A DNA stretch of 48,984 bases from the IMG/VR virus record IMGVR_UViG_3300046467_000959, positions 1 to 48,984 of that record. One strand, written 5' to 3'. Position 1 is the stretch's first letter, and every line of letters begins with the position of its first letter. Origin of the DNA: a virus. The notes beneath the pieces are model-generated. The model was not told the DNA's origin and did no database searches. It was given only the letters and a program-made list of their open reading frames with translations. Below, piece after piece: positions 342-40,504 of the stretch. The translations under genes and the position numbers were made by a program.

Positions 342-992
342 GTGGCGTTGACGACCCTCGCCGACCTGAAGACGTACTTGGGCATCAGCGACTCGTCAGA
401 GGACGCCCTGCTCAACCTGTTGATCGCTGACGCTGACGCGGCGATCCTGGGCTACATCGGTCGCACCATCGAGCAGGCCACGCTGACAGAGTATTACAGC
501 GGCGACGGGACGCAGATGCTCGTGCTGAAGCAGCGTCCCGTGACGGCGGTGACTTCGGTTCACGTTGACCAGTCGGGCTATTCCGGGCAGGGCAGCGGGG
601 CGTTCGCCAGCGCCACCGAGTGGACAGCGGGCGAGGACTTCTACATCCGCACCGAGGTCGAGAACGAATCCAACACCGGGGAACTGGTGGCGATCAAGGG
701 GCCGGGGACGTTCACCGCTGACCACCAGCCGAAGACCTGGGGCGAGTGGCCGCACGGTACGGGCAACGTGAAGGTGATCTACACCGCCGGATACGCGACG
801 GTGCCGAGCGACCTCGCTGGCGGGTGTCGGATCCTGGTGGCGTGGATGCGGGCCAGCCGGGACAACGGGATGCCGGTGAAGTCTGAGAAGCTGGGGTCGT
901 ATTCGTACACGCTGCTCGATGATACGGGGATCCCCGAGTTGGCGACGATCAGGGGCATCTGCAACCGATACCGGAACATGATTCTGATATGA
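342..992 (+). CDS. head-tail connector (gp6-like adaptor)
   Basis: The 216-residue protein opens with a helical segment typical of HK97 gp6 / phage_connect_1 adaptors (LADLKTYLGISDSSEDALLNLLIADADAAILGYIGR, given here as the pattern L-x-DLK-x-YLG followed by an LLNLLI helix). The central YYSGDG and LKQRPV motif is shared by this family. It forms the ring that docks under the portal once DNA is packaged. The start is GTG 342, with TGAGGTGAG just upstream. The stop overlaps the next gene by 4 bases. The protein is longer than the 100-150 residues common in the family because of an added region at about 90-150. Confidence 0.75.
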   Translation: MALTTLADLKTYLGISDSSEDALLNLLIADADAAILGYIGRTIEQATLTEYYSGDGTQMLVLKQRPVTAVTSVHVDQSGYSGQGSGAFASATEWTAGEDFYIRTEVENESNTGELVAIKGPGTFTADHQPKTWGEWPHGTGNVKVIYTAGYATVPSDLAGGCRILVAWMRASRDNGMPVKSEKLGSYSYTLLDDTGIPELATIRGICNRYRNMILI

Positions 993-1330
993 GCCTGAGC
1001 GGACTCCTCACGCAGCGAGCGACGATTGAGCGATGGGCACGCACGGTGGATGATTACGGTGAGGTCGCACCGAGCTGGGCCAGTTCATCGACCGACGTGC
1101 CGTGCCTGATCCAACAGCGCAACGGAAAGATCGACGAGACAGCGGCGGGCCGCGAGTATGATTTCAGCGCGGTGGGGTTCTTCAAGCCGGGTGCAGACAT
1201 CAAGCCCCAGGCCAGCGACAACGCGGACGGTGACCGGATCGTGGTGGACAGTGCGACGTACCAGGTGCGGGGCGTGGGTGACGAGACGGGACGGGGCAAA
1301 CTGTTGACGGTCTACCTGGAGCGTGACTGA
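989..1330 (+). CDS. head-tail joining / head closure protein
   Basis: The 113-residue protein starts with SLSGLLTQRATIERWARTVDDYGE, the usual opening of SPP1 gp16-like head closure proteins (phage_H_T_join): an R-x-T-I-E-R strand followed by a D-x-G turn. The C terminus (YQVRGVGDETGRGKLLTVYLERD) matches the last beta strands of that small barrel. It would close the connector and bind the tail. ATG 989 overlaps the previous stop, and the stop overlaps the next ATG by one base. Confidence 0.75.
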   Translation: MSLSGLLTQRATIERWARTVDDYGEVAPSWASSSTDVPCLIQQRNGKIDETAAGREYDFSAVGFFKPGADIKPQASDNADGDRIVVDSATYQVRGVGDETGRGKLLTVYLERD

Positions 1331-1860
1331 TGGCTGGATTCCCTGGCGCTAAGTTGATGAACGCGTTGAAATGGCAGAAGGCGTTATTCGCCGCCGATAC
1401 CAAGGTCAAGGTCGGCATCCGGTCTGGGTTGGTCAAGATTGGTCAGGCAGTATCGACGCAGGCCAAGACGCGCGTCCCGGTGTCCAGCGGGGCGGCCAGA
1501 GATAAGGCTACCGGACGGTTCAAAAGCAAGGGCTCCAAAGCCGGGCATCTGAGGCAGTCTATCCGATACGAGGTAGTCGGTACGACGGCGGTGACTATGG
1601 AAGCGAGGATCGGGACGAACGTGGAGTACGGAGTGTTCGTCGAGTACGGGACAGACAGGATAGCCGGTGGAGCTGTGAAGGCTCTGGGAATGGGCGACCA
1701 GATCCAGGATTCCCAGGCGATTTTCTCATGGCCTGCGTTGGCGGCGAGAAACGGTAAGGAACAGCAGATGCCTTGGCTACGGCCAGCCGCGTTCATGTAC
1801 CGGGCCAAAGCGAAGGGCATAATGATCACAGCCATGAACAGAGCAAGGAAGATAAAATAA
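1330..1860 (+). CDS. HK97 gp10-like neck/tail component
   Basis: In this 176-residue protein the middle (GHLRQSIRYEV, then NVEYGVFVEYGT) is the hallmark of the HK97-gp10_like family: a strand with L-R-x-S-I and an EYG-x-x-x-EYGT motif. A basic segment at about 50-75 precedes it. Members sit between the head closure and tail terminator genes, as here, and help attach or terminate the tail. AT-richer codons than its neighbours (for example the run of ATA and AAA at the end) suggest a different recent history, though the length is normal. Confidence 0.75.
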   Translation: MAGFPGAKLMNALKWQKALFAADTKVKVGIRSGLVKIGQAVSTQAKTRVPVSSGAARDKATGRFKSKGSKAGHLRQSIRYEVVGTTAVTMEARIGTNVEYGVFVEYGTDRIAGGAVKALGMGDQIQDSQAIFSWPALAARNGKEQQMPWLRPAAFMYRAKAKGIMITAMNRARKIK

Positions 1861-1861
1861 G

Positions 1862-2302
1862 GTGGCTGATCTGTCAGAAGTCTGGAAGGGGATCCGCGAT
1901 GTCCTCGTCGGCGACGCGACGCTGACCGCCATGCTGTCGTCGGCGTCGTCGGTCTACGAACGCGACCCGCCGCTGGAGACTGGATTTCCTATGCTCACGC
2001 TGTGGCAGGTCACCGACGGGGCAGTCAACGCTGTCAGCGGCTACGGCGAGTTCCGTGCTGACGTGCAGATCGACGTGTGGTCAACCAGCCCCAGGACCAA
2101 CGAGCAGATCAAGTCACGTTTGGACGAACTGTTGGAGATCCCGCGAGTGGTGACGACGCAGATCAGCACGACGAATTACAACGTGACAAACTGCACTCGC
2201 ACCAATTCACGGTTCGTTGGTACAGTAGAGATCGAGGACGACGGGAAGCACATACGTCACCTCGCCACGGAATGGCGAGTGACGATCCGCAAAACGACAT
2301 AG
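1862..2302 (+). CDS. tail terminator protein (DUF3168-like)
   Basis: This 146-residue protein starts at GTG 1862, directly after the preceding TAA. The order is an N-terminal helix (WKGIRDVLVGDATLTAMLS), a P-x-L-x-x-G-F-P-M-L segment, then strands ending in a W-R-V-T-I motif. This fits the DUF3168 / gpU fold that caps the end of the tail tube. Gene order between gp10-like and the major tail protein supports the call. No unusual feature is seen. Confidence 0.65.
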   Translation: MADLSEVWKGIRDVLVGDATLTAMLSSASSVYERDPPLETGFPMLTLWQVTDGAVNAVSGYGEFRADVQIDVWSTSPRTNEQIKSRLDELLEIPRVVTTQISTTNYNVTNCTRTNSRFVGTVEIEDDGKHIRHLATEWRVTIRKTT

Positions 2303-2315
2303 CAGGAGATGACTC

Positions 2316-2813
2316 ATGGCGATTGGTGACATTGTTGGTGGCCCGGCTGACGTGGAGCTGGGGGCAGCATCATCGGAAGCGACCATCGGAAACACGACCG
2401 GGGGCGTCACCGCGACGGTGACACCGCAGAACCGCGAACGGATCGTGGACAAGTACGGCTCGACCGCCATTGCCATCATCCACACGGGTGACGAGGTGCG
2501 GGTGACCGTTCCTTGGGCCGAGTGGGCGCAAGCGACGCTGAATGAAATATACGACCCCGGCACCGACGCCGGTACGTCGAAGGGCGTCGGTCGTTCGGCT
2601 GGCTACATCTACACGACCCAGTCGATGGACATCACGCCGTTCCTGACAGCCGACGCCGCCAAGACCGTCGAGTTCTACAAGGTGACGCCCATCGGCGAGG
2701 TCAGCATGGCGTTCAACAACGACGACGACCGGATCATGGAAGTCGAATACGCCGCCCTTGCTGACGTGACCAAAACTGACGGCTCGCTTGTCGGATTGCT
2801 GAACCTGAGCTAG
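2316..2813 (+). CDS. major tail protein
   Basis: A 165-residue tube subunit: an N-terminal IGDIVGGPADVELG strand, a long loop, and strands such as GEVSMAFNNDDDRIMEVEYAAL that fit the tail-tube fold in which subunits stack as hexamers. It follows the tail terminator and is followed by the only strong T-tailed terminator in the tail region, the usual setting of the most highly expressed tail gene. The SD is AGGAG, 7 bases before the ATG. Confidence 0.75.
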   Translation: MAIGDIVGGPADVELGAASSEATIGNTTGGVTATVTPQNRERIVDKYGSTAIAIIHTGDEVRVTVPWAEWAQATLNEIYDPGTDAGTSKGVGRSAGYIYTTQSMDITPFLTADAAKTVEFYKVTPIGEVSMAFNNDDDRIMEVEYAALADVTKTDGSLVGLLNLS

Positions 2814-2839
2814 TCGCTGCTTGAGTCGCTGCCCTCCTG

Positions 2840-2884
2840 ACGTTAGGCTAGTCGGAAACCACACCGGCTGGCCTAGCGTTTTTT
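2840..2884 (+). terminator. intrinsic terminator after the major tail gene
   Basis: Arms 2840-2855 and 2864-2879 pair across 16 positions with three G-T wobbles, leave an 8-base loop, and run into six T (2879-2884). It should trim read-through from the major tail gene into the chaperone and tape-measure genes. Confidence 0.88.
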
Positions 2885-2899
2885 ATGGGAGGAACACGG

Positions 2900-3391
2900 A
2901 TGGCGAAGAAGAAGGTTGAGCGGCCCGCGACCATCGACGTGGAGATCAGCACCGGGGAAGTCATCACGGTGGGGATGCTCGATTGGAAGGGTTACAAGGA
3001 ACTAAAGCCAGCGCTAGTGAACACGATGGCGCAAAGGGCGGCAGAGACATTCTCCGACCCTGGTGTTCTGGAAGGCACTGGCGGCGCGGCGGCGATGGCT
3101 CCGCTCTTGGCGGGACTCGACGAGGCGATGAGTGACCTGACCCCATTGTTCGTCGAGGCCTGCGTTGAGGACAAGAACTCCCTGGGTGTCGTCAGCCGTC
3201 CGATTGACTGGCTCAGGCTCCGCGAAGCAGCGGCCCAGGTCAACGACCTCAACGAGATCCTGGAACTGGAGGGAAACGCACTGGCGGCGGCGATCACAGC
3301 AGTGATGAGCCGCCTGATGGGAGCGACCGATGGTGGGTTGCAATTGAGCACCAGCTCGCTGCCGCTTACGGGTGGACAGTCCCAGACATAA
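2900..3391 (+). CDS. tail assembly chaperone (gpG-like)
   Basis: The start is ATG 2900, with GGGAGGAAC 6 bases upstream; an earlier in-frame ATG at 2885 overlaps the terminator and lacks an SD. The 163-residue product (MAKKKVERPATIDVEI, a T-x-G-E-V-I-T-V strand, then helices) sits between major tail protein and tape measure, the place of lambda gpG/T. Chaperones of this family coat the tape measure during tail assembly and leave afterwards. A GGGAAAC heptamer at 3271-3277 allows a -1 shift into the next frame. Confidence 0.7.
   Translation: MAKKKVERPATIDVEISTGEVITVGMLDWKGYKELKPALVNTMAQRAAETFSDPGVLEGTGGAAAMAPLLAGLDEAMSDLTPLFVEACVEDKNSLGVVSRPIDWLRLREAAAQVNDLNEILELEGNALAAAITAVMSRLMGATDGGLQLSTSSLPLTGGQSQT
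3271..3277 (+). promoter_or_regulatory. candidate -1 ribosomal slippery site GGGAAAC
   Basis: In the zero frame the codons are GGA AAC preceded by G, so the heptamer reads G GGA AAC, the X XXY YYZ form used in lambda-like G/GT frameshifts. After a one-base backward slip the frame stays open from 3277 into the next gene at 3397 and on to 3825. The intervening peptide ends in protein-like sequence (IEHQLAAAYGWTVPDINR), which suggests real translation there. Confidence 0.55.
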
Positions 3392-3396
3392 ACCGG

Positions 3397-3825
3397 ATGC
3401 CGTGGATCGACGTGTTCGGTCATCTGCACGAGATCATCCAGAGCAAGGTCGGCGCACTGCGGTGGGCGATCACGGCGGCGTCCTATGCGCACATGGAAAA
3501 GGCTGGCCGTAACTCGGTGGACGCTTCGCTAAAGGAATACGAGTCGGTTGAGGTACGACCGGGCAAGGGGACGACAAACACTCAGGTCAAACACGCCGCC
3601 TACGACGCGATGCCGGACGAAGCCAGGGTGTTGTCTATCGGAAGCTGTCTGGCGAACGAGGGGCTGGTCTTCCTCGACAGACGGCAACACCATCGGGAAT
3701 GGCTGGCTGAGAAAGGTATATCGCCCGAGGATGCCCGGTTGCGGTATACTGCGTGGAGAGCCGAAAAGGACGCCGCCAAGGAGAAGCGGGCAGGCGGTGG
3801 TGATCCGGTGGGTGGAGATGATTGA
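3397..3825 (+). CDS. tail assembly chaperone extension (gpT-like)
   Basis: The frame is -1 relative to the preceding chaperone and is open from at least 3277. The ATG at 3397 has no convincing SD, and convincing protein sequence extends upstream of it. The natural product is therefore probably a GT fusion 2900-3825 made by frameshifting. The visible part is 142 residues (WIDVFGHLHEIIQSKVGALRW..., a helix-rich domain, then a charged Lys/Arg/Gly tail). Such T domains bind the tube subunit while the G domain binds the tape measure. The stop TGA at 3823-3825 overlaps the next ATG. Confidence 0.7.
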   Translation: MPWIDVFGHLHEIIQSKVGALRWAITAASYAHMEKAGRNSVDASLKEYESVEVRPGKGTTNTQVKHAAYDAMPDEARVLSIGSCLANEGLVFLDRRQHHREWLAEKGISPEDARLRYTAWRAEKDAAKEKRAGGGDPVGGDD

Positions 3826-4205
3826 TGGCGGACACGGTCACGCTCGGAACGGTGACGATGAACGGGCCGGTCGGTGGCGGTCAGAGCGTGCGACCCAAGG
3901 CCCGGTTCGTCTCCGGTCGCACGGTCAACGGGACAACCTACGTCTACCAGAAGAACGACCAAACGCAGAACGTCTGGGTGTTGTCCTTCAAAGACCTGAC
4001 CGCCGTCCAGAAGACAGCGTTGCAGACATATTTCAACGACGTGGCGAAGGGGCCGAGCAACACGTTCAGCTACACCCACACGGACGGGACGACCTACACG
4101 GGTGTCAGGTTCCTCGACAACGTGTTGGAGTTCAGTCGGATCGACGGCGGTGCGTTCTTCAGTTGTAATCTCGAACTCCTTATCGCCGCCGAGGTTGACG
4201 ACTGA
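3825..4205 (+). CDS. putative minor tail protein, Dit/DUF2460-like
   Basis: The 126-residue product starts at ATG 3825 (SD GGTGGAG); a TTG three bases earlier is possible. It is rich in beta strands. The segment WVLSFKDLTAVQKTALQTYFND followed by an F-x-Y-x-H-x-D-G-T-T-Y strand resembles distal-tail and DUF2460 proteins, which contain a W-x-L-x-F-x-x-L helix. Its place between chaperones and tape measure is unusual, as distal tail genes normally follow the tape measure. The fold call is from pattern only. Confidence 0.45.
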   Translation: MADTVTLGTVTMNGPVGGGQSVRPKARFVSGRTVNGTTYVYQKNDQTQNVWVLSFKDLTAVQKTALQTYFNDVAKGPSNTFSYTHTDGTTYTGVRFLDNVLEFSRIDGGAFFSCNLELLIAAEVDD

Positions 4206-7200
4206 TGCCCGGTGAAATCCAAACCTTAGTCACAATCTTCCGGGCTAACTCGACTCAGTTCCATGCGTCGATCAAACGCATGGCGGCGTCGGTGAAGCGG
4301 CTGGCGGCGGTGACGGCTACAGCAGGCAAAGCTATAGGTTCGTCGTTCCAGCAGATCGGGATGGTGGCGGGCGGTGCCACCATCCTCGCCATCAAACACT
4401 TCGCGGAATACGAAAAGCGGATGGTGGCGGTGAAAGCCGTCACCGGAGCGACCGGCAGGGAATACGCAAAGCTACAGAAGAAGGCGAAGGAGATGGGTGC
4501 CACCACCATCTTCACCGCTGAAGAATCAGCCGAAGCGATGCAGGTCATGGCGATGGCCGGGCTGACTACCGGCGAAATCATGATGGCGATTGGGCCAGCG
4601 ATGGAGCTGGCGGCGGCGGGTGAGATCAGCGTAGCGGACGCGGCTGACATTGCCGCCAAGACCATGCGCGGAATGCAGTTGACCGCGTCGGATTTGACGA
4701 CGGTTAACAACGTCCTGGTCGGGGCGCTTACCACCAGCAACACGACCATGATGATGCTCGGTGATGCGTTGAAGTACGTTGCCCCGCTTGCGGCATCGAC
4801 CGGGACCAGTATTGAGGACACGGTGGCGGCAATCGGCAAGCTGTCCGATGCTGGCTTCCAGGGGTCGATGGCGGGCACCGGACTGCGGCAGATAATGGCG
4901 AAGCTGTCGGGGTCGGCACCGGCGGTTACCGCCAAACTGGAAGGGATGGGAATCAAGACGCTCGATGCGGCGGGCAATATGCGCCCGCTGTTCGACATCA
5001 TTGCCGACATCGAGGCAAAAGGGTTATCTGCTGGAATGATCATGCAGTTGTTCGGCGCACGGGCCGGGCCGCAGATGCTCGCCCTGCTTGGCGTCGGGTC
5101 TGATGCACTCAGGGATTATTCTGACGAACTACACGCCGCAGACGAAGCGGGTATCGCCGCCCAGATCACGCAGGAGAAACTCAACTCGGTCTGGGGCCAG
5201 TATAAGCTGATGGTGTCGGCTGTCAGCGGTGTGGTCATCGAAGCCGTCGAGAAGATGCTGGGAAGCGTGCGCGGGTTACAGTCCGGTTTCCTGGAGTTCT
5301 TTGAAGACGCCAAGAAACGGGAAGGACTGGTCAACGGTCTGGCGGCGGTCTTCAAGAAGACAGTCGATGTCGCCAGGTCACTGACAGCCGCTCTTGTCAA
5401 AGCGTCTCCGGCCATCGGCCAAGTGGCTTCCATGTTCGGCAAAGTGATCGGGAAGGTGAGTGACTTCCTGATCAAGAACCCACTAGTTCTGGCTGCGTTC
5501 GTAGCGTGGAAAGCGGCCCAACTGCTGGGAGTCGTACCTGCGCTGATGTCAACAGTCCGTTGGCTCGGCGTAATGATCTCGACGATGAGTGTCGGGGTGG
5601 TCAAGGCTATCGGCCAGATGATCGTTGCGATGGGTGCGCCCCTGCTTGGATCGTTAGGTCTGGCAAAGGGTGGCTTTGCCTCGATGGGAGTAGCAGCGAC
5701 AGCGGCATGGGCAGCGGCGACCGTTGGCATCACGTTGCTCATCGCCGGGCTGATCACGCTCGGTGCGTGGTTGATCTCCAGGCGCGAAAAGATCCTGGCG
5801 TGGGCGCAGAGTATCAGCGGCAACCTGATCCCCACCATCAGGAGGATCGGCGGTGAGGTTCTCGACTGGGTTAAATCTCGATGGGCGATGTTCCTCGAGT
5901 GGTTTGAATCCAAGGCGACGCCGATCATCGACAAGATAGCCGACGCGTGGGAGCAACGGGTATGGCCCGCGTTGCAGCGGGTGTGGGAAGTCATCTCGAC
6001 GAAGCTGATGCCAGCGTTCGGTAGACTCATAGCTAAGGTGGGCAGCAAGCTGATGCCCATCTTGGAGGATCTGGGCGCAATTCTGGGCATGGCGTTGATC
6101 CTGGCGCTCATATCCTTTGCGGAGTGGCTGGAGCGGAGCGTCCCGCTACTGGAGGCTTTTGCAGACGCGGTCGAGGCTTCAACGCCGTACATCGTGGGGT
6201 TCATAGAGGCGGGGCTGCAACCGCTAAAGGGTGTCCTGTTTACGATCAAGATGATACTCGGCGCGCTGATAAAACAGTTCGAGAAGCTCCAAGCCCTGAT
6301 GTTGGCCGGACTCCCCGGTATGGATGCCGGGGACCAGGCGGCCCTGGATGCAGCTGTGGAGCGGAACAAGGCCAAAGCCCATGCGATAGATGCGGAGCGG
6401 GAAAGGCAACAGGCGGCACGGGACGCCCCGCTCCCCGGCGACACCGACGACGAGACACCGGAGGAACGGAAGAAGCGACGAGCCAAGGCGGTCTCGATGA
6501 GACCGGTTATAGCCACGGGTGGTGGTGTCGGTGCGGGCGCTGGTGGGGGCGCTGGTGGGGGCGCTGGTGGGGGCATGGGTGCGGGCGGTGGTGGTGGCGA
6601 TCCAGCCTCGGCGGGGATTCTTCAACGACGGCAGGATGAGCAACGTGACAAGCTGAGGGAGAAGCAGTTCGGGAGAGAGGCGACGACAGAGACTGGCGAG
6701 TTCGGTGACTTCCTGGACAGCCGTCCTAGCGCCGGGATGATTGGTGATTATCTCGACACCGTGGATGGAATCTCGGCTGCTGACAAGACAGCGGTGGCCG
6801 ACCGATACGATGCCCAGGACGCGGCCAACGAGCGGGATCTGGAACAAGACTTAGCCGCTGCCAACACTCGACTTGAGGCTGCACGTAAACAGAAAGAGAA
6901 GCAGTTGGAGTGGATGCAGTCGTCGGGGTCGTCAGAGGAGTTCATCGAAAAGCAGCGACAGCAGAACAGGATTGACCTCCAGAAGATGAAAGCGAAGGAG
7001 GACAAGGACATCGGCGACAAGGACGCCGCCCGGCGCAAGGCCAACGCCGACCAAGCCGAGCAGGATTATCTTGCACGTCGATCTGCGCACCACCAGCGGG
7101 AGGCTCGTCTGAACGCGGAGAAGGACCAGCTTGAAGTGGGTTCCCTGACGAAGCGTCTGGAGGCTCAGAGAACTCACGGCGACCAAGCGTTGAACTTCGC

Positions 7201-8017
7201 GACCGAGCAGACGCAGCGGGAGTTCACTCTACTCCAGCAGAAGTTTCAGGCCGGGCAGATCACGCAGGAGGAATACGCTGCCAGTCTCGCCCGGCTCAAC
7301 CACGGGTTCTCGACCGGGCAGCAATGGGCGACGAGATTGACCCAAGCGCAGAACCTCGTCGCCAACTCGTCGGCTGGGATACAGCGGCACATGGCGGGGG
7401 TGAGGCAGAAGTTTCTCCAGTTGCAGAACACGTTCCAGCAGGGGAACATGACGCAGTCGCAATACAATGCGGCGCTGAAGGAACTCAACAAGTCGATGAA
7501 CGAAGGTACGGCGGCGGCGAGAAAGGAAGCTGCGGCCAAACGGAAATCTATGCAACGGGCGAGCGGAGGGGGACGCGGTGGCGGTGGCGGTGGTGGTGGT
7601 GGTGGACAGCAGGTTGACGCGAGCAAGGCTCACCCGCTCGACGTTATGTTCCGCGATCTGGCGATGGCGATGGCACGAGCGGGTGCGGTGCATCCGTGGG
7701 GTGACAAGTATGCGACCCGAATAAGCAACCTCCGAAGCCGACAGAATGCTCGCTTTAAAGCGGAGATGGACATTGCCGCAATTCAAAAGAAGATAAACGA
7801 CTACACGCTGGCACAGAAGCGTCGGCAGATGGCGTGGCTGAGGGCGAATGCACCGATGTACGGAACAGCCGGAGTTGACCCCGGCATGGTGACCAAAACC
7901 GAAGGCAACGTCACGATGTCGTTCCCGAACGTCACGCGGATGAACAACGAGGAGATCGCTTCGGTGTCCGACCGCATCGACGAGTATAGAGAACGAGTCG
8001 GGCGGCAGGTGGTCTAG
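4205..8017 (+). CDS. tape measure protein
   Basis: A 1270-residue protein that sets tail length. Residues about 50-340 match the TP901-type tape-measure core (MAMAGLTTGEIM, the A-D-I-A-A-K-T-M-R-G segment, and a G-T-G-L-R-Q-I-M motif). Residues about 410-530 hold several hydrophobic helices expected to enter the host membrane. After residue 770 come Gly-rich spacers, long charged coiled coils with many Gln and Glu, and a second Gly tract near 1120. If each residue spans about 1.5 angstroms as an extended helix, the tail would be near 190 nm; that is an estimate. No lysozyme or peptidase motif is seen. Confidence 0.92.
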   Translation: MPGEIQTLVTIFRANSTQFHASIKRMAASVKRLAAVTATAGKAIGSSFQQIGMVAGGATILAIKHFAEYEKRMVAVKAVTGATGREYAKLQKKAKEMGATTIFTAEESAEAMQVMAMAGLTTGEIMMAIGPAMELAAAGEISVADAADIAAKTMRGMQLTASDLTTVNNVLVGALTTSNTTMMMLGDALKYVAPLAASTGTSIEDTVAAIGKLSDAGFQGSMAGTGLRQIMAKLSGSAPAVTAKLEGMGIKTLDAAGNMRPLFDIIADIEAKGLSAGMIMQLFGARAGPQMLALLGVGSDALRDYSDELHAADEAGIAAQITQEKLNSVWGQYKLMVSAVSGVVIEAVEKMLGSVRGLQSGFLEFFEDAKKREGLVNGLAAVFKKTVDVARSLTAALVKASPAIGQVASMFGKVIGKVSDFLIKNPLVLAAFVAWKAAQLLGVVPALMSTVRWLGVMISTMSVGVVKAIGQMIVAMGAPLLGSLGLAKGGFASMGVAATAAWAAATVGITLLIAGLITLGAWLISRREKILAWAQSISGNLIPTIRRIGGEVLDWVKSRWAMFLEWFESKATPIIDKIADAWEQRVWPALQRVWEVISTKLMPAFGRLIAKVGSKLMPILEDLGAILGMALILALISFAEWLERSVPLLEAFADAVEASTPYIVGFIEAGLQPLKGVLFTIKMILGALIKQFEKLQALMLAGLPGMDAGDQAALDAAVERNKAKAHAIDAERERQQAARDAPLPGDTDDETPEERKKRRAKAVSMRPVIATGGGVGAGAGGGAGGGAGGGMGAGGGGGDPASAGILQRRQDEQRDKLREKQFGREATTETGEFGDFLDSRPSAGMIGDYLDTVDGISAADKTAVADRYDAQDAANERDLEQDLAAANTRLEAARKQKEKQLEWMQSSGSSEEFIEKQRQQNRIDLQKMKAKEDKDIGDKDAARRKANADQAEQDYLARRSAHHQREARLNAEKDQLEVGSLTKRLEAQRTHGDQALNFATEQTQREFTLLQQKFQAGQITQEEYAASLARLNHGFSTGQQWATRLTQAQNLVANSSAGIQRHMAGVRQKFLQLQNTFQQGNMTQSQYNAALKELNKSMNEGTAAARKEAAAKRKSMQRASGGGRGGGGGGGGGGQQVDASKAHPLDVMFRDLAMAMARAGAVHPWGDKYATRISNLRSRQNARFKAEMDIAAIQKKINDYTLAQKRRQMAWLRANAPMYGTAGVDPGMVTKTEGNVTMSFPNVTRMNNEEIASVSDRIDEYRERVGRQVV

Positions 8018-11000
8018 TGGCACGCTCAGTCAATCTGCCCGACTCGTTCAAGGCCGAGATGACCCGCGTGGGTGGTTCGTTCCCCAGGTTCGTCCTGGGT
8101 ATCGACTACGACGGCACGCTGAAATACTACAGCGACATCTCCATCGGCACGGCGGAGCTGAACGCCACCGGCAACATCAACAGTTGGGGCCAACTCCAAT
8201 TGCAGGCGACGCCTGGAGCGGTGGGCGGTCACCAGAACATCACGCTGTCGTTAGCCGACCCCGACCTGACCCTCATCGACGACTTCACCGACTGGCCGGG
8301 TATCCAGACTCGCCCGTGCTACATCTATATGTACTACGACCCGGCTCCGACCGGAGGCGGGTGGGCGGATCGTATAACGCTGTTTAAGGGCGTCGTCGGT
8401 CCCGGCATGAAGTTCGACGAGAAGTCGGCGACCTGGAACCTGTCGCTTGTCGACATCGGGAAGAAGAACAACCCCACCATCGGGGTGCATTTCAGCCGCC
8501 AGATCTTCTCGGAGATGAACTGCTCGACCTGCGGCGATGACGCCATCATCCCCATCGCCTACGGTGATCCGGTGAAGGGTGTCAGGGGTTGCGTGATCCA
8601 GCGACCGGGGAGTGGCGCGATATGCCAGGCACCGTGTACGGCGTATGCGAACTACACCGAGACGGACCTGCTGGGGGTGTCGTGTTCGTTCAATGGGCCG
8701 GACCTCTGGTTCACGATCTGTTCTGGGACGCGGTGGCAGTTCTCCCTGGGCGAGCAGTGCATTGTCCTGAGTGACCGGAATCGGATTGAGAGGGTGTGTG
8801 GCAAGCTCCATTCGAGCGGACTGTTCGAGATATACGACTTCAACAACTTCAGCCACTTCTCGTGGGACGCCGGGAGCCAGAGGGACGCGCGTGGCTCATG
8901 GGTGGCGACGGGGCGCGGGTCGTACTACGTGTACGGCGGCGAGAAATTCCTGACGCTACCGAAGACGGCATTCGCCGACTGGACGAACGGGGGAGCTGGC
9001 TTCGCGGACGCGATTGGGGTGTGGGTCAATTGTGACGGCTGGAGATACTTTCCGGCTGCGATGTGGGCGTCGGTCTCGGGGAGTCACGTCGCGTTCATCA
9101 ATATCGGCGAGGGTGCTGGGGGGCTGATGGACCCGTGCCCGAACAACAACTACGAGTTCATCGCAGTACATAACGGGTCAGCCAGCACGCCGTGGAACGG
9201 GTGGTCAGTCGGGACAGGGGTGCGTGCTGGTGACCCGTTTGTATACGCCGTGAACTTCCTTCCCAGCGAGGCCGTTCTCGACATCCATTTTGAGAATCAA
9301 AACTACATCAACCACAGCAACTGGTATGCCAACCTTAACGACACGTCGTACAATGTCGCGTTGAAGCGTGACACGAGCGACCCCGGCATCACCACCGTCA
9401 CGCTCTACGATTGGTGGGACGTCTACAACCCCTTTGATATGTGGAGTGGAGAGAACCAGAAGCTGGATTCCATTCTGGCGAACCTGAGAGGAATCGTCGG
9501 TCACGAGGATCACCGGGCCTATGACGGCGACGCGCTCAAGCATCCGGTCGATGTTATCGAGGACTATCTGACCAACCCGTTCCTGGGCAACACACCCTAC
9601 TCCATGATCGACACAGCGTCCTTCGACGAGGCCAAGGACCGCATCGACGACCTGACTCAGGACATCGCCCCGAGCAACGCTCCGCAGGGATTACGGTTCG
9701 CCTTTGCTCAATACAAGACAGAAGAACTGAACAATCATATCCAGCAATTGGCCGTGCAGGGCACGATGCTGCTGTTCTGGGATATGGGGATGGCCACGCT
9801 GCGGGCCATCTTTCCAAACTGGGACCAGTCAGATACTGTCTTCGAGGTCAACGAGTCAAACCAACAGGATGACACGTTCGGCTTCGACATACTCGACATC
9901 GAGAAGTCACCGACCGAGTTGGTGGGATTGTTCACCGCGTACAGCGACCTGTACAACGCGACCTACAACTTCCGCAGTGACCGGGCTATCGAGCAACGGA
10001 TCATCCGAAGGTCGAGCGAGGCCGAATTGTTCAGGCCACGCAAGTCAGAGTCGGTGAAACTGACAGCGTACCAGGAGGTCTATTCGGTCAGCTATGTCCT
10101 TGAGACGTGGCTGCGTGACCGAGTGAACACCAGTGCCAACGTGACGGTCACGCTTTACCTCGACGCGATGCACCTTCAGCCCGGCGACATCATTGACATC
10201 CAGAGACAGAGTGGTGTGCCGAAGGTCTTGATGCACAAGCTGGCTCGGGTGGAATCAGCCAGCCAGAACATCGGCGATTCTCGCAATGGCCAACCGGGCC
10301 TCATCAAGACCAAGAGCCAGATCCGTCTGACCGACTTTGCGATTGAGGCGGCGCAGTTCATCGAGCAGGATTGCGACCAATCGGTGACGGCTCCCGGCGT
10401 GACGACAGCACCTCCCAGGGTTGGCCCGGCGACAACGACCGTCCTGCCAACCAGCACAACCGTCACGGTTCCGCCAGCGACCACGCTCCCGGCGACTACG
10501 ACAGTCAACCCGGTGCCACCGACTACAGTCACTACCGTGACGACGACGCCTCCGACCTGTACCGCGTCGGGCAACTGCGCGTGGCAGTATGACCCGTCCT
10601 TGCCCGTGGCTGGGAATCCGTGTTGGCCGTTCGTCCTGATTGACAGCGACTGCGGCGCAGGCGAGTTCTGTTATCCGATGTACTCCGGTGGCAGCGCGAA
10701 CGGGTGTCCGTCCGGTAGCCCAGGACTACTCCAGTGCCTGAACACGCCCTGCCAAACTGCGACGACAACAGCCCCGACGACGACGACCAGCACCAGCACA
10801 ACGTTGACGACCCCGGATCCGGGTTGCTTGTTTAGTTGCTTCTGGGTCTGGACGGTCGGCACCAACGGGATCGGTGTCTATGTTCTGCACCCGAACAGCC
10901 TCGCTTGCACGAGCGTCTCGGGATGCGACTGTCTGGCGACTCCGCCCAGTTCGTTCAGCGGGACCGTGTGGATCTCTCAGTGCGGCGCGTCTTGGGCGAC

Positions 11001-16447: not shown

Positions 16448-16814
16448 TTGCCGCCACCGACAGGGCCGAGCCCGGTACGAGTTCAGCCGTCACGATGGTG
16501 ACACCGTCGTCGGGGTGTTCGGTTGTGAGAAGCACGGCGAATGCACGTTGAACGACAGCGGGGTGGTGGTCCCTGATGTGTCGTCGCCCGCCGACCCCGA
16601 TGGCTGTGACCACCTGGGTGAGCCGACCCACTCGCTACCGGCCACGTGCTGTTCGGATGGTCCGATTGAGATACGCGCGTGTGCGGTGTTCGGCGAATGC
16701 TCGGTCAAGAACCCGACACCCCAGGTGATGCGCGTGTGCGTCCGTTGTCACCGACACACCCAACGCGAACGACCGGTGCGGGTGTGTGACGGTTGCCCCG
16801 ACCTGACCGGTTGA
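16440..16814 (+). CDS. Cys/His-rich protein, last gene of the modification cluster
   Basis: A 124-residue protein overlapping the previous gene by 8 bases. It has two related halves, each with an upstream C-x-H or C-D-H pair and a V-F-G-C/E-x-x-x-GEC motif (FGCEKHGECT and VFGECSVKN). A zinc ribbon (CVRCHRH, CDGCPD) closes the chain. The repeat suggests two or three metal sites. A role as substrate adaptor for the glycosyltransferases is a guess from position. Confidence 0.6.
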   Translation: MSDCRHRQGRARYEFSRHDGDTVVGVFGCEKHGECTLNDSGVVVPDVSSPADPDGCDHLGEPTHSLPATCCSDGPIEIRACAVFGECSVKNPTPQVMRVCVRCHRHTQRERPVRVCDGCPDLTG

Positions 16815-38875: not shown

Positions 38876-39309
38876 TAACCTGCACGCGCCGTATTCAATT
38901 CTGCGCCGGTCACCGGGTGATGGGCCACGAGAACAAGTGCGCCCACCTGCACGGCCACAACTACGTCGTGCTGGTGACCGCCCAGGGGACCGAGGGGCTG
39001 GACCGCATCGGGCGGGTGGTGGACTTCGCGGTGCTGAAGCATCGGCTGGGTGGGTGGATCGAGGACAAATGGGACCACGGCTTGATCCTCAACACCGACG
39101 ACGTGGACGTGTGGGAAGCGGTACGGGTGTTCGTTGCGTCCGGTGTTGATCAGAAGACGTATGCGATGCCGGACAACCCGACCGCCGAGAACATGGCGAA
39201 CCACCTGCTGCGGGTGATCGGTCCCCAGGTGTTGGACGATACCGGGGTGACGCTGACCACCGTGCGGGTGTGGGAGACCGAGAACTGTTACGCGGATGCG
39301 ACGTTATGA
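38872..39309 (+). CDS. queD: QueD (6-carboxy-5,6,7,8-tetrahydropterin synthase)
   Basis: A 145-residue protein. RRIQFCAGHRVMGHENKC with AHLHGHNY gives the zinc histidines H14, H27 and H29 and the catalytic Cys 23. WDHGLIL and WETENCYA supply the other conserved Asp, His and Glu. It makes carboxy-tetrahydropterin from the FolE product, the second step to 7-deazaguanine. ATGA junctions link it to the genes on both sides. Confidence 0.88.
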   Translation: MITCTRRIQFCAGHRVMGHENKCAHLHGHNYVVLVTAQGTEGLDRIGRVVDFAVLKHRLGGWIEDKWDHGLILNTDDVDVWEAVRVFVASGVDQKTYAMPDNPTAENMANHLLRVIGPQVLDDTGVTLTTVRVWETENCYADATL

Positions 39310-39944
39310 GCGAACGGCAATACCACGTCAACGAAGTGTTCTACTCGATCCAGGGTGAAGGGGTCAGGGCAGGAACCGCCAACGTGTTCGTTCGGTTCGC
39401 GTATTGCAACCTCGAGTGTCGGGTGGAACCAGGACCGAAGTCGCCTGGTGGGTTCGACTGCGACACCGAGTTCGCCAGCGGTCGGGCGGTGACGTTGGGT
39501 GAACTGGACGAGTGGATCGCCACCGAACTCGGAACAGATATTCAAACCTCCGACGACACCGGGTGGATCATCCTGACCGGTGGTGAGCCTGGGCTACAGG
39601 TAGACACCGAACTGATCGACCACCTGCACGACGCGGGGTGGAAGCTGGCGATTGAGACCAACGGCTCGGTCGTGATCCCGGAGGGGTTGGATTGGGTGAC
39701 GGTCAGCCCGAAGGTGGCGGAACACGCCATCCGGCAGAAGACCGCCGACGAGGTGAAGTATGTGCGGGGACACGGTCAGGCGGTCCCCGAGTCGGTGGTG
39801 GTTGCCGATCACTACCTGTTGTCTCCCGCGCATGACGGCTGGTTGTTGGACGACCGGGTGCTGCAATGGTGTATCAAGTTGGTGAAGGAGAACCCGCCGT
39901 GGCGACTGAGCATACAACAGCACAAGACAACCAAGGTCCGGTGA
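39306..39944 (+). CDS. queE: QueE (7-carboxy-7-deazaguanine synthase)
   Basis: A 212-residue radical SAM protein. FYSIQGEGVRAGT is the family opening. The iron-sulphur cysteines are C34, C38 and C52 (a C-x3-C-x13-C spacing with an inserted loop, ending FDCDTEF). ILTGGEPG is the SAM-binding GGE motif. It makes CDG from the QueD product. The 3' end overlaps the folE gene by 46 bases. Confidence 0.88.
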   Translation: MSERQYHVNEVFYSIQGEGVRAGTANVFVRFAYCNLECRVEPGPKSPGGFDCDTEFASGRAVTLGELDEWIATELGTDIQTSDDTGWIILTGGEPGLQVDTELIDHLHDAGWKLAIETNGSVVIPEGLDWVTVSPKVAEHAIRQKTADEVKYVRGHGQAVPESVVVADHYLLSPAHDGWLLDDRVLQWCIKLVKENPPWRLSIQQHKTTKVR

Positions 39945-40504
39945 CGTGGTGGGACAAGCCCGCACCGACCGATGCGGTGCGTGACCTGTTGCTCTACGTC
40001 GGGGAAGACCCGACCCGTGACGGCTTGATTGACACACCCCGGCGCGTGGTGAAAGCGTTACGCGAACTGACCAGCGGCTACCGTGACGACCCCGCCGACA
40101 TCCTGGCGACGACGTTCGCGGCGGATTGTGACGAGATGGTGGTGGTGCGCAACATCCCGTTCTACTCGTTATGCGAACACCACCTGCTGCCGTTCCACGG
40201 AACCGCTACGGTGGGCTACATCCCGACCGACCGGGTGGTTGGGTTGAGCAAGATCGCTCGGTTGGTCAACTGCTTTGGCAGACGGCTCCAGATACAAGAA
40301 CAGATGACTCGACAAGTGGTGGATGCGATGATGGAGTACGTGGACCCGGTGGGTGCGGCTTGTGTCATCAAAGCCACACACACGTGCATGGCGATGCGGG
40401 GGATCCGCTCGGATGGGGAGACGGTCACCAGTGCGTTGGCCGGTGCGTTCCTGGACAAGCCGGAAGCGCGCGCTGAGTTTATGAGCCTGGCGAGGACCGA
40501 CTGA
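39899..40504 (+). CDS. folE: GTP cyclohydrolase I (FolE)
   Basis: The 201-residue protein starts at GTG 39899 with AAGGAG 8 bases upstream, inside queE. The zinc residues lie in CEHHLLPF and in HTCMAMRG; GYIPTDRVVGLSKIARLVN is the family core, and QEQMTRQ the following helix. It starts the pathway from GTP. Having its own FolE lets the phage run the pathway without draining the host folate enzyme. Confidence 0.9.
   Translation: MATEHTTAQDNQGPVTWWDKPAPTDAVRDLLLYVGEDPTRDGLIDTPRRVVKALRELTSGYRDDPADILATTFAADCDEMVVVRNIPFYSLCEHHLLPFHGTATVGYIPTDRVVGLSKIARLVNCFGRRLQIQEQMTRQVVDAMMEYVDPVGAACVIKATHTCMAMRGIRSDGETVTSALAGAFLDKPEARAEFMSLARTD

Follow-up and report, generated by a model that had tools for sequence, protein, structure and literature searches.

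A candidate O-glycosylation cassette behind a poly-threonine gene of the putative tail tip of an uncultivated phage

Why would a tailed phage carry a set of putative modifying enzymes directly behind a tail gene that encodes 39 threonines in a row? The question is raised by IMG/VR virus record IMGVR_UViG_3300046467_000959, one linear record from an uncultivated phage, of which the whole 48,984-nucleotide stretch was analysed (hereafter, the window). An initial annotation, made from the sequence alone, had proposed that the phage hydroxylates and glycosylates its own tail stalks. We suggest that the genes at 13494-15506, probably with those at 12919 and 15503, constitute a phage protein O-glycosylation cassette for the Thr/Pro stalks of its own tail, a reading to which we assign a probability of about 0.73. 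It builds on features that were observed directly, namely sequence motifs, a modelled fold, the order, coupling and fusion of genes, and recurrent co-occurrence. Because the predicted fold of the glycosyltransferase (GT) resembles that of polypeptide N-acetylgalactosamine (GalNAc) transferases, and because its pairing with threonine stalks recurs across many unrelated phages, these phages probably sugar-coat their own tails.

Threonine stalks and the enzyme genes behind them

The features on which the argument rests are as follows.

8017..12231, + strand: tail-tip/hub-like protein of 1404 aa, with a ~800-aa N-terminal tail domain followed by Cys-rich modules on Thr/Pro stalks (assigned by position and homology)
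11866..11982, + strand: 39 consecutive Thr codons, mixed ACN (aa 1284-1322 of the 8017 gene)
12919..13497, + strand: 2-oxoglutarate (2OG)-Fe(II) oxygenase of the prolyl-hydroxylase-type superfamily (Pfam 2OG-FeII_Oxy_3, 2.9e-7, above cut-off)
13494..13727, + strand: DUF6171-like Cys-rich protein (Pfam DUF6171, 2.3e-4, just below the curated cut-off; phrog_13558, 5e-10)
13813..14355, + strand: class I S-adenosylmethionine (SAM) methyltransferase (Pfam Methyltransf_24, 1.6e-7)
14355..15506, + strand: polypeptide GalNAc-transferase-like GT-A glycosyltransferase (Pfam Glycos_transf_2, 8e-10; DSH at ~14658, GGEE at ~15009, HxF at ~15090)
15503..16447, + strand: conserved partner gene with an EHDVxYP motif, whose homologue overlaps the same GT in locus L059 (L-numbers label the viral and bacterial loci compared here)

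The predicted model of the 14355 GT (predicted local distance difference test score, pLDDT, 93) was most similar to polypeptide GalNAc-transferases, which made up 48 of the 50 PDB fold matches listed (best E 6e-14), with template modelling scores to GT27 structures, normalised to the query, of about 0.6. GalNAc-T7 was the only PDB sequence match at E <0.001 for the window GT alone (6e-4), and the GGEE and downstream H of the two enzymes align. The DSH, GGEE and HQFGR motifs were all present, and D101 and H103 (DxH), E221 (last E of GGEE) and H245 (H of HxF) were invariant across 18 relatives. The closest viral model, from an uncultured tailed phage, shared 28% identity, and neither the window GT nor that of L028 had a match among 50,697 phage records.

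Polypeptide GalNAc-transferases are animal enzymes that start mucin sugars. With these GT27 enzymes the window GT shares the predicted GT-A fold, DxH, GGE, HxF and a Thr/Pro-rich candidate acceptor, but their identity is about 15%, and the phage enzyme is coupled or fused to a methyltransferase and DUF6171. No Pfam match to the ricin-type lectin domain was obtained in the window GT or its fused relatives; in its place stands a Met/Gln-rich tail in the former and a methyltransferase-DUF6171 portion in the latter. Because the lectin domain is missing, we place the enzyme outside GT27 membership, while predicting from motifs and modelled fold that it works like GT27.

The best GT start is the ATG at 14355 (not 14289), which overlaps the methyltransferase stop as TGATG; further couplings are ATGA at 13494 and GTGA at 15503, where the partner gene overlaps the GT stop. 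Four small genes lie between the Thr-rich gene and the GT. The stalks and Cys-rich modules, the 39-Thr run, the oxygenase, the methyltransferase, the GT motifs and the overlaps all agreed with the initial annotation, as did its expectation that the GT would fall nearest to polypeptide GalNAc-transferases instead of nucleotide- or lipid-only enzymes. Its second glycosyltransferase was not recovered: the 15503 protein had no match in Pfam, PHROG, NCBIfam or PDB. A PDB sequence search with the oxygenase and the methyltransferase gave no matches.

The tail assignment rests on context. Genes at 342-4205, including a head-tail connector and tail components, precede the tape measure (4205-8017), behind which the 8017 gene comes next; its N-terminal ~800 aa have a homologue in L018 and L022, encoded behind the large gene that takes the tape-measure position there. 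We therefore regard its product as a putative tail tip. This N-terminus had no match among the same phage records. The Cys-rich modules carry C-x-C-x-W-x-W, with the stalks between them, and further Thr runs of 11, 10 and 7 were found.

Recurrent pairing of glycosyltransferases with threonine stalks, and neighbouring modules

A profile built from four GTs retrieved 20 viral loci. In 8 of the 14 non-redundant viral GT loci, window included, the closest gene upstream that encodes 150 aa or more was Thr-rich (at least 14 Thr in 40 residues, a threshold set after the data were seen); the same held for only 3 of the 151 other genes (P=4e-8; P 6e-7 at a threshold of 16). Gene order was kept at about 45% GT identity. 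Long GT fusions occur in L004, L024 and L030; L024 and L004 join GT, methyltransferase and DUF6171, three separate genes in the window, in one polypeptide, where a rhamnosyl-O-methyltransferase-like domain (RMNT_CmcI) occupies the methyltransferase place. In L004, L024 and L163 the stalk gene is immediately followed by this triple fusion, and DUF6171 is joined to the GT C-terminus in L004, L024, L090 and L163. Additional GTs, possibly extenders, are present in L022, L027 and L018, and in the last of these a radical SAM gene lies close to them.

The reverse survey began only from (ACN)21 DNA, and its 120 viral loci yielded 100 coding poly-Thr open reading frames. A GT was the first downstream gene of 20 of 60 testable poly-Thr genes, versus 3 of 803 genes elsewhere (0/52 first upstream genes and 3/751 others). 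After clustering at 70% identity the counts were 15/53 versus 3/746 (P 2e-16), and with the independently made GT profile alone 10/53 versus 3/746 (P 1.7e-10); a poly-Ala control gave no GT match in 50 loci. Both search directions thus bore out the co-occurrence expected earlier, and linkage of a GT to a structural gene, as in phage virion glycosylation systems, was found. The GT is also present beside stalks nearly or wholly free of Cys (L028, with 48 Thr and 2 Cys; L092 and L110, with none), which points to Thr, not the Cys modules, as the substrate.

In most bacterial loci of the same GT, the enzyme was part of another fusion and had no Thr-rich gene beside it; among the exceptions are loci from Planctomycetota (L163, L164, L233, L234) and Thermomicrobiales (L169). 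Among 392 Planctomycetota genomes sampled, a strong GT match was found in only 7, too few for statistics, and a possible host link to this phylum comes only through related metagenome-assembled and other genomes.

Another GT family was found behind poly-Thr genes, with a modelled GT-A fold (pLDDT 84) matching glycogenin, UGGT, WbbM and COLGALT1. In isolated Enterococcus phages its relatives adjoin the gene for the major tail protein; Enterococcus phage phiFL1A and Lactococcus phage 1706 are among the isolates with this family beside a tail gene. Two unrelated GT types in one slot suggest convergent recruitment. A motif-based guess that this family is a hydroxyproline-arabinosyltransferase was unsupported by Pfam and a PDB profile search, and the fold search gave GT-A only. 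In L055 (294-2291) and L095 (4521-6518) this GT lies within a 665-aa protein behind the poly-Thr gene, the L055 copy bearing a radical SAM/SPASM domain.

The remaining features of the region are listed below.

12084..12231, + strand: C-terminal Cys module of the 8017 gene, sharing 94% identity with 12355-12502 across 148 bp
12251..12502, + strand: small protein with a copy of that last Cys module
12562..12873, + strand: 103-aa protein with weak DUF6385 similarity (Pfam)
16440..16814, + strand: small Cys/His-rich protein

The last Cys module appears to have been recently duplicated into the 12251-12502 gene, and the L003 homologue of this gene bears a 29-Thr stalk with a different domain, which suggests that displayed domains are exchanged as modules. 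Downstream of it (~12474-12560), an out-of-frame CASPPFEYEGD is similar to the C-terminal end of the small protein's L011 counterpart, possibly a remnant of a replaced module. L022 encodes a separate mucin-like protein (2305-3642; 162 Thr in 445 aa) upstream of its large gene in the tape-measure position.

Alternative explanations

Several observations weigh against the glycosylation reading. With the deep GT profile, the best PDB sequence matches were common GT2 enzymes, among them TarP and TarS, which act on wall teichoic acid. Of the testable poly-Thr genes, two in three had no recognised GT beside them, and viral GT loci L023/L025, L029 and L031-L033 had no Thr-rich neighbour. The second family was noticed through its position, and its count is therefore partly circular. 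As for hydroxylation, it is less supported as part of the system: oxygenase relatives were detected in the window's close kin only and none outside.

One alternative gives the cassette another target: a host surface glycan (for seroconversion or superinfection exclusion), the Cys modules, or other proteins of the virion. In its favour are the GT homologues in viral and bacterial gene clusters without Thr-rich neighbours and the teichoic acid enzymes among the profile matches. However, in poly-Thr phages the GT lies just downstream of the stalk on the same strand, even without Cys modules, and the window GT is coupled to its neighbours behind tail genes; we regard this explanation as unlikely. 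It seems more improbable still that the oxygenase, methyltransferase and GT hypermodify the phage genome, as in TET/5-hydroxymethylcytosine-type clusters with GT2, the tail-gene position being incidental. Virus-encoded DNA-hypermodifying GTs are known (Pyle 2024, as cited in a passage of PMC12619734) and weak PHROG labels read 'DNA methyltransferase', but Pfam matches were limited to 2OG-FeII_Oxy_3 and Methyltransf_24/25, with none to Tet_JBP or DNA-C5-methyltransferase. The rhamnosyl-type methyltransferase domain of the fused relatives, the peptide-acting GT27 enzymes as nearest predicted fold and the strong linkage to Thr stalks likewise argue against a DNA target. The window phage also has separate genes at 36589-40501 (queuine tRNA-ribosyltransferase-like, phrog_887; PTPS/QueD-like; GTP cyclohydrolase I) that probably form a 7-deazaguanine DNA modification pathway.

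A third alternative treats the Thr runs as microsatellite-like spacers and the GT as an unrelated moron, inserted behind tail genes where the site is permissive. It is very hard to credit, even though run length differs between close relatives (19-38 Thr) and the 39-Thr run shows weak 6/9-bp tandem periodicity (TRF). Every run examined mixes several Thr codons; the 39-Thr run uses all four (13 ACC, 13 ACT, 8 ACG, 5 ACA) and is therefore not one expanded DNA unit. The enrichment persisting after clustering, the empty poly-Ala control and the conserved gene order also speak against such a chance arrangement.

Proposed mechanism and relation to known systems

The acceptor, donor sugar, methyl target, oxygenase role and biological outcome of the cassette are inferred. 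The 14355 enzyme would put the first sugar on stalk Thr/Ser, the methyltransferase would cap the sugar by O-methylation, DUF6171 may be an accessory metal-binding part, and in other phages (L022, L027, L018) further GTs could lengthen the glycan. The outcome would be rigid, extended stalks projecting the Cys-rich modules, and also a hydrated or host-like coat. Prolyl hydroxylation is conjectural and the weakest part of this scheme. Of the initial proposal, modification of the tail stalks by phage enzymes is thus supported by fold and co-occurrence, but hydroxylation, a second GT and antibody escape are less so, the last because related loci are environmental viral contigs and paired bacterial loci are mostly Planctomycetota.

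Virion glycosylation by phage enzymes is already known. Mycobacteriophages Che8, Corndog and Myrna glycosylate their own virions with phage GTs (Freeman 2023, as summarised in passages of PMC12363180 and PMC12619734). According to these passages, phage GTs there, like the candidate here, are aimed at the phage's own structural proteins, but the targets are the capsid and tail-tube C-termini, not a candidate Thr/Pro stalk of a tail-tip protein, and resemblance to polypeptide GalNAc-transferases distinguishes the window enzyme. Mimivirus collagen modification (PMC9546862) likewise combines a viral oxygenase and GT on a low-complexity surface protein, but concerns hydroxylysine in giant-virus collagen; here, the candidate substrate is the Thr stalks of a tailed phage and hydroxylation is suspected. 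In the literature searched, no relevant paper turned up on GT27 of phages or on phage tails with poly-Thr, and none linked a GalNAc-transferase-like enzyme to poly-Thr stalks of a tail, which does not in itself prove novelty.

More broadly, and with odds only slightly better than even, tailed phages may share a widespread mucin-like system in which poly-Thr tail proteins are O-glycosylated by dedicated, independently recruited GT-A enzymes of GalNAc-transferase-like or glycogenin/COLGALT1-like type, the sugars being methyl-capped and extended by enzymes specific to each lineage. If so, a testable function could be given to the poly-Thr tail proteins that recur in viral contigs, mucin-type chemistry would extend to phage tails, and compact GalNAc-transferase-like enzymes, one class of them fused to a methyltransferase, would become available.
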